Below, piece by piece: positions 1-1,046 of a stretch of DNA of 64,000 nucleotides. The DNA lies in NCBI GenBank assembly GCA_021851875.1, contig JAJZQI010000006.1, positions 1 through 64,000 on the forward strand. Reading direction: 5' to 3'. The notes under the pieces were generated by a model. It saw only the letters and a program-made list of their open reading frames with translations, was not told where the DNA came from and did no database searches. The first letter of the stretch is position 1. Each line of letters begins with the position of its first letter. The translations under genes were made by a program, and so were the position numbers. This stretch comes from Pseudomonadota bacterium. GTDB lineage: Bacteria; Pseudomonadota; Gammaproteobacteria; Burkholderiales; JAJZQI01.

Positions 1-143
1 AGGACTGCGATCAACAATCTTGTAACGCGCCATGCCTTCGCCTCTCCCGTCGTCTTGCTTCTTCGTTCGACCTTGCCGAAGAAAAACGTTCAGCGCAGAA
101 TGGGGTTTTTATACAGCCTGGTTAGAGAACTACAAGGACCGTC

Positions 144-965
144 ATGACCATTGTTGAGCAAACATTCATTATTCACTTGGACTACGGAAATCGCGCTGAT
201 GAACGAAAGTTTGTCGCCGATGTACTTGACACTTTCGACAAAGACACGCTGTGTGGTGCAAATCTATTCATTAACAATGACCCATACGGCCTTGAGCTTC
301 TCCTATCTCTAAATTTTGAGAAGGATGGCGATAAGTTTGAGTCGTGGTTAAGAAACAACTACCCAGCCAAGAAGCGGGAATATCGTCTCTTGTTTGAGGA
401 CATCACCACCGCCATCAGTCGAAAGGGCTACAGCGTCTGTGGTTTGCTAGATAGCGACATGCTTTCATTTGCTATGCCATCCGAGGCTAACGGACTCTTT
501 CTCTTCCCAGACCGAAAGATAATTTCCTCGATTTGGGGGCGTGCTACCGCAAGTTCATCGTTCTCAGTTTTTCTATCCCACTCCAGCCGAGATAAGCCAC
601 TTGTAGATGCCGTATTCAATGAGCTTCACAAGCGAGATGTGCGCGCTTGGTATGACCGCTACGAGATTGAGCCTGGTGACAGCATTACCGACAAAATCAA
701 CGAGGGGCTTGCCAACAGCAAGTTGGGGCTACTGTTCTTCTCGAAGAACTTTTTAGATCCACGCTCTGGCTGGCCGACTAAGGAGGCCAATTACTTCTTC
801 CAAAAGCTGATGCGAGACGGGAAGAAGAATTTCATTGTTCTTAATATCGACCTGTCCGTTGATGAGCTTCCACCGCTGCTTCAAGACTTCCGGTTTATTG
901 ACATGCGTTCGCCGTCTGCCATCACTGAGGTTGTCGACTTTGTTAAGAAGCAGGCCGTTCTCTAA
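144..965 (+). CDS. TIR-domain protein with an uncharacterised N-terminal domain (integron cassette 1 ORF)
   Basis: C-terminal half FSVFLSHSSRDKPLVDAVFNELHKRDVRAWYDRYEIEPGDSITDKINEGLANSKLGLLFFSKNFLDPRSGWPTKEANYF is typical of TIR domains; followed immediately by an attC site. Confidence 0.85.
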   Translation: MTIVEQTFIIHLDYGNRADERKFVADVLDTFDKDTLCGANLFINNDPYGLELLLSLNFEKDGDKFESWLRNNYPAKKREYRLLFEDITTAISRKGYSVCGLLDSDMLSFAMPSEANGLFLFPDRKIISSIWGRATASSSFSVFLSHSSRDKPLVDAVFNELHKRDVRAWYDRYEIEPGDSITDKINEGLANSKLGLLFFSKNFLDPRSGWPTKEANYFFQKLMRDGKKNFIVLNIDLSVDELPPLLQDFRFIDMRSPSAITEVVDFVKKQAVL

Positions 966-1027
966 CCCTGCGCTCAACCGGACGCTGCGCGATAAAGCCG
1001 CGCAGCGCCGGTGACCTTCACGTTATA
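960..1027 (+). repeat. integron attC recombination site 1
   Basis: CTCTAAC...CTCAACCGGACGCTGCGCG-ATAAAGC-CGCGCAGCGCCGGTGACCTTCACGTTATAC: TAAC/GTTATAC core sites, perfect inverted CGCTGCGCG/CGCGCAGCG stem and the asymmetric extra base (CCGG-A-CGC) typical of attC. Confidence 0.88.
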
Positions 1028-1046
1028 CATCCAGGTCTCGGACGTC

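Follow-up and report, generated by a model that had tools for sequence, protein, structure and literature searches.

A TIR-domain gene carried as an integron cassette: a candidate single-protein defence effector with an N-terminal domain outside the families searched

Described TIR systems and the TIR gene of the window

SpbK, encoded on ICEBs1 of Bacillus subtilis, is a 266-residue protein in which the TIR domain starts at residue ~115, Glu192 is essential, and the N-terminal domain binds the phage portal protein YonE, thereby triggering the TIR domain (PMC11984713). Staphylococcal ThsB1 binds a phage capsid protein (PMC11312562). TIR proteins have also been reported in integron cassettes, where they were read as host-directed effectors (Ghaly 2024, PMC11089894), and three 2025 reports (Darracq, Getz, and Kieffer), as cited in PMC12444791, describe integrons as antiphage libraries. 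These studies, the latter three as represented by the citing paper, resemble the present case in that TIR and defence genes form the cassette cargo. No description of the protein family analysed here was found in the literature, with the Darracq, Getz, and Kieffer reports covered through the paper that cites them.

The window analysed here is a 64,000-nucleotide stretch at the start of contig C10 of the source genome (2.68 Mb in 52 contigs). Its TIR gene lies at 144–965 on the forward strand, with a ribosome-binding-like AAGGA just 5′, and encodes a protein of 273 amino acid residues. This protein consists of an N-terminal domain (N-domain; residues 1–134, bases 144–545, forward strand), which has no family match, and a TIR domain (residues 138–273, bases 555–962, forward strand). 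Pfam assigned residues 142–256 to TIR (PF13676, 76.8 bits against a cut-off of 28, E = 2.5e-21; PF01582, E = 6.3e-9). By sequence, the closest solved structures were PdTIR (3h16), the TIR proteins 4lzp and 4c7m, and the NAD+ hydrolase AbTIR (8g83). The segment SGWPTKE (residues 208–214) pairs with WPQKE of PdTIR in the alignment, and its W210 and E214 form a WxxxE motif (bases 771–785) conserved without exception in the six family members aligned, the window protein included, down to 28% identity. The Glu of such motifs is catalytic in the TIR NADases SARM1 and AbTIR. The window TIR domain is a candidate NADase that would act through E214. The sequence-only reading had placed a TIR domain in the C-terminal half and had singled out SGWPTKE with its candidate Glu, and both points are borne out by the PF13676 match, the PdTIR alignment, and the invariant motif.

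The window protein resembles SpbK in being a single protein of similar size, in having an N-terminal domain followed by a TIR domain with its Glu, and in being carried on a mobile element. However, when the two were compared by profile, the PADLOC spbK profile aligned only at or near the TIR domain, over a short stretch (E = 0.03), and the N-domain was not matched. The best PADLOC match was PDC-S66, a candidate single-gene TIR system (E = 5.5e-22) whose TIR domain starts at ~143 of 282 profile positions. Here too, only positions 143–235 of the 282, which is the TIR half, were aligned, whereas the N-domain had no match in any relative tested. The TIR half also matched Thoeris ThsB/ThsB1, but the cassette contains no ThsA-type partner and the N-domain was again unmatched. 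The match of the TIR half to Retron-TIR (NF042941, RT-TIR type XII) reached 73.6 bits, far below the 600-bit cut-off, and no reverse transcriptase accompanies it.

Cassette boundaries, the array, and the insertion sequence at its left edge

The TIR gene is a genuine integron cassette that spans 121–1024. The left boundary is the R′ core site GTTAGAG at 121–127 (forward strand), and DNA identity to the Burkholderiaceae (L055) and Acidithiobacillus sulfurivorans (L057) copies described below begins exactly at base 121. The attC of the cassette occupies 960–1028 (forward strand), with R″ CTCTAAC at 960–966, which contains the TAA stop codon, and R′ GTTATAC at 1022–1028. Its bottom strand folds into a hairpin in which one base is extrahelical (−22.5 kcal/mol, z −4.9), and 0 of 200 shuffles were as stable. 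A homologous attC is located 3′ of the A. sulfurivorans copy (L058), with which identity ends at 1024, inside the attC R′. Such sharp ends of identity at core sites are what cassette exchange predicts.

The array continues on the forward strand. The second cassette contains an ORF of 158 residues counted from ATG (1047–1523), which had no Pfam or PADLOC match, and an attC at 1518–1597 (fold z −6.2). The third encodes a GNAT acetyltransferase (1614–2111; PF00583, E = 2.8e-16), and a degenerate attC at 2074–2155 (fold z −4.7, imperfect R′) marks the end of the assembled array. Just past this last attC, a YoeB/YefM toxin–antitoxin pair is located on the minus strand (2154–2656; PF06769, E = 3.6e-40). 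The integron integrase of the source genome (intI at G000:C38:236852-237790; TIGR02249, 484 bits, above cut-off) is on a separate contig from the cassette. No attI was found beside the TIR cassette in the assembled sequence, where bases 1–120 are the end of an insertion sequence (IS) and the contig ends at the first base of the window.

This IS end (1–120, minus strand) comprises the start of the transposase gene (MARYKIVDRSP...) and the terminal repeat at the right-hand side of an IS1182-type element that interrupts the preceding cassette's attC. A complete copy of ~1.6 kb is present on contig C11 (G000:C11; L024 1069-2687) and is 100% identical over window bases 1–125. The transposase matched the NCBIfam IS1182 family with E = 3.4e-54, a match that falls short of the family cut-off, and the C11 copy seems to have a shifted reading frame. 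Bases 1–33 were also considered as the start of intI, which would place the TIR cassette first after attI; this was ruled out by the IS1182-type transposase with its complete copy on C11, and by the position of intI on C38.

Eight ends of this IS were found in the source genome, five left ends after ...CGTT and three right ends before GTTA, and every one of them directly adjoins an attC-type core site, which suggests that attC is the target of the element. The ends lie in the window and on contigs C11, C13, C24, C26, C38, and C40. The element would then be an attC-directed IS that does not belong to the known IS1111-attC group. Certain IS1182 members reportedly insert at palindromes (PMC5678879), and a literature search pairing IS1182 with attC met no description of attC targeting by an IS1182-type element in the text available from it. 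On contig C24, directly after another copy of this IS, a possible RelE/HigB-type toxin gene with an HTH antitoxin gene was noted by eye (L026 184-730, G000:C24).

The IS now lies between the TIR cassette and the attC upstream of it, and thereby probably impedes both excision of the cassette and read-through transcription that starts at the integron promoter. The left neighbour of the TIR cassette could be contig C38, C13, C26, or C40. A consensus promoter was looked for 5′ of the TIR gene and was not found, and expression of the gene in the source genome is therefore uncertain.

Relatives, selection, and the N-terminal domain

A single scan of 85,000 genomes yielded three homologues over the full length, in a Burkholderiaceae MAG, a Desulfuromonadaceae MAG, and A. 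sulfurivorans. Two more members (L092 and L100) were then reached with an alignment profile. The Burkholderiaceae copy (94% amino acid identity) is in a cassette with an attC upstream (z −3.4). The A. sulfurivorans copy is also in a cassette, is 95% identical in the N-domain and 98–99% identical in the TIR domain, and has an intact intI nearby (L057 3335-4354); overall, these two cassette copies share 94–96% amino acid identity with the window protein. In A. sulfurivorans, an insertion that has inverted ends and a 9-bp target duplication, AATTACTTC, breaks the TIR gene at codon 218 (L057 6646-6738, L058 1-82). The Desulfuromonadaceae copy (89% amino acid and 79% DNA identity) is not a cassette, and attC was not found at either of its flanks. 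In the distant genome with L092, the homologue is 28% identical, with N-domain similarity at E = 4.3e-6 and the TIR domain in the same ORF. Core-like letters 3′ of L092 were tried as an attC and rejected, as the fold was no better than that of shuffles (z −0.7). L100, on a prophage-like viral contig, is 47% identical over the full length (N-domain 40%, TIR domain 54%). Searching plasmids and phages with the window protein by tblastn gave no match at E 1e-5.

The gene had earlier been read as an integron cassette gene and a candidate mobile one. The R′/R″ core sites, the attC fold, and the identity to two genomes that starts at base 121 agree with the cassette assignment, and the near-identical cassette copies in other bacterial families agree with mobility.

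Compared in pairs, the copies from the window, the Burkholderiaceae MAG, and Acidithiobacillus gave dN/dS values of 0.03–0.07 over residues 1–217, and ~0.05 for the N-domain alone in the same three cassette copies. In comparison with the Desulfuromonadaceae copy, synonymous sites were at or near saturation, with dN of 0.05–0.07. The N-domain is therefore about as constrained as the enzyme, and is neither a linker nor rapidly diversifying. As judged from these copies, the TIR gene is one that travels between bacteria and is kept intact by selection. If the cassette were silent or decaying, with its frame intact yet not expressed or functional in the source genome, this would fit the IS that now lies between it and the upstream cassette, the lack of a detected consensus promoter, and the broken A. 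sulfurivorans copy. We consider this decidedly improbable, as the reading frame is intact and dN/dS is well below 1 on comparable copies.

The N-domain (~134 residues) gave zero matches in Pfam even at E 10, no match better than E 0.037 in PHROGs, and no match better than E 0.25 among PDB sequences; no characterized non-defence family was matched in these three collections. Structural comparison added little: the two AlphaFold models of the N-domain were of low confidence (pLDDT 48 and 58), and Foldseek with such queries (pLDDT 58 at best) gave no match below 1e-3 among PDB folds and viral folds. Within the family, the motif YG-R ... NN(D/N)PY-LE ... F-F-D is invariant in all N-domain members aligned. 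The residues invariant in the six members are Y14, G15, R17, N44, N45, P47, Y48, L50, and E51, together with W210 and E214. N-domain scans of 399 genomes of the order and 399 of the phylum, as well as of 58 relatives of the L092 genome and 66 of the A. sulfurivorans genome, returned known members and chance matches only. The candidates L090 (flavodoxin-reductase-like by eye) and L093 (response-regulator-like) were judged to be chance matches, and the N-terminal part of a Megaira plasmid match (L097) was unsupported, so that it was not accepted as a family member.

The sequence-only reading had not recognized the N-domain, given there as ~130 residues, and had called it novel. It indeed lies outside the Pfam, PHROGs, and PDB families searched. 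Its novelty stands in the sense that it is outside every characterized family searched, but not in the sense of a domain confined to this gene, because it recurs before TIR in the prophage-like contig and in the distant bacterium, and possibly on Gram-positive plasmids.

We propose that the N-domain acts as the trigger or sensor of the TIR domain. A broader reading, which we hold only tentatively and would not bet on, is that it founds an undescribed sensor family of stand-alone TIR effectors that occurs in integron cassettes, in a clostridial-type prophage, and perhaps also on conjugative plasmids of Gram-positive bacteria, and that recognizes a conserved target such as a component of phage or cell that changes slowly. 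Recognition of such a target would explain why the N-domain is 87–96% identical across distant bacteria while synonymous sites are saturated.

Genomic neighbours and the predicted mode of action

The cassette that directly precedes the TIR cassette in A. sulfurivorans (L057 4651-5879) encodes a DUF5343 protein and a HEPN_Swt1 protein. This pair matches the PADLOC candidate defence pair PDC-M34A and PDC-M34B over the full length of both (E = 1.9e-78 and 2.7e-77), where PDC denotes predicted systems. In L100, phage replication-type genes lie on one side of the TIR gene and terminase/portal genes on the other; next to it, on the opposite strand (L100 6738-7948), are genes for ThsB_TIR (E = 5.5e-14) and DUF4231/SLATT (E = 3e-20). 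That pair could itself be a Thoeris-like unit. As far as gene content indicates, the A. sulfurivorans and L100 settings are typical of defence cargo. The PADLOC TIR-defence profiles, the PDC-M34AB neighbour, and the ThsB-TIR/SLATT neighbours of L100 give indirect support to the antiphage defence role that the sequence-only reading had suggested for the TIR cassette gene, whereas NADase action and sensing by the N-domain, also suggested there, are predictions.

The explanation that we favour, with modest confidence, is a single-protein abortive-infection TIR effector that is SpbK-like and moves as an integron cassette. The TIR domain, as a WxxxE-type NAD+-cleaving enzyme, would be kept inactive until the N-domain (residues 1–134) binds an infection signal. 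Binding would bring TIR domains together, that is, activate them by oligomerization, the E214 active site would then cleave NAD+, and with the collapse of the NAD+ pool the infected cell would stop before phage release. The very strong conservation of the N-domain counts against this explanation, as it is unlike that of many sensors of fast-changing phage proteins. If the explanation is right, the cassette is a one-gene defence unit of ~0.9 kb, swappable by the integron and partner-free, with a detection domain absent from the databases searched. It would then serve as a detailed example for the recent proposal that integrons act as stores of antiphage genes, and TIR cassettes earlier interpreted as host-directed effectors would merit a second look. 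With six members down to 28% identity and a short list of invariant residues, sensor and enzyme are directly testable by mutation.

The chief rival is a Thoeris-like sensor, in which the TIR domain would make a cyclic ADP-ribose signal for a separate effector encoded elsewhere (e.g., ThsA or a membrane protein of the SLATT type). In its favour, the TIR half has matches among the PADLOC ThsB profiles (E = 5e-9), the prophage homologue L100 adjoins the ThsB_TIR and SLATT genes, and L100 itself matches NCBIfam Thoeris type III ThcB4 weakly (E = 1e-5, below cut-off). However, no partner gene moves with the TIR gene in the cassettes, the neighbouring cassettes of the window are not recognizable effectors, and the ThsB/SLATT pair of L100 is encoded on the other strand and includes a TIR of its own. 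The ThsA SLOG domain (PF18185) had no match in four genomes; this search was confined to the SIR2/SLOG type among the SIR2/SLOG, macro-, and TM-types of ThsA, its control likewise had no match, and the result is not decisive. We regard the Thoeris-like alternative as unlikely; a partner in trans for the TIR protein is possible.

A secreted TIR effector that interferes with eukaryotic host immunity would agree with the way in which TIR cassettes of plant-associated bacteria were read from effector predictors (Ghaly 2024, PMC11089894). Here, homologues occur in Acidithiobacillus, in a Desulfuromonadaceae MAG, and on a prophage-like contig, none with an obvious host of this kind, and the window protein opens directly with the conserved N-domain, with no signal sequence evident by eye. 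This makes host interference highly improbable.

The TIR effector could also respond to incoming plasmids or conjugation, and thus serve competition between mobile elements and not defence against lytic phage. This alternative draws on the Gram-positive plasmid TIR proteins of Lactococcus allomyrinae and Enterococcus faecalis, which may carry the same N-domain: these possible relatives are encoded next to a glucosaminidase or lysozyme gene on plasmids of Enterococcus and Lactococcus that are conjugative or mobilizable. However, hhalign of the N-domain profile with the plasmid N-domains gave a weak match (probability 51%, P = 1.5e-4), and, leaving aside the cassette copies and that of the Desulfuromonadaceae MAG, the nearest clear relative is encoded by a prophage-like contig. 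We therefore consider such plasmid-directed activity improbable. On the E. faecalis plasmid EFD32pB (L098 4004-4805), the N-domain and TIR domain are annotated as two adjacent ORFs, and on related plasmids they are fused.
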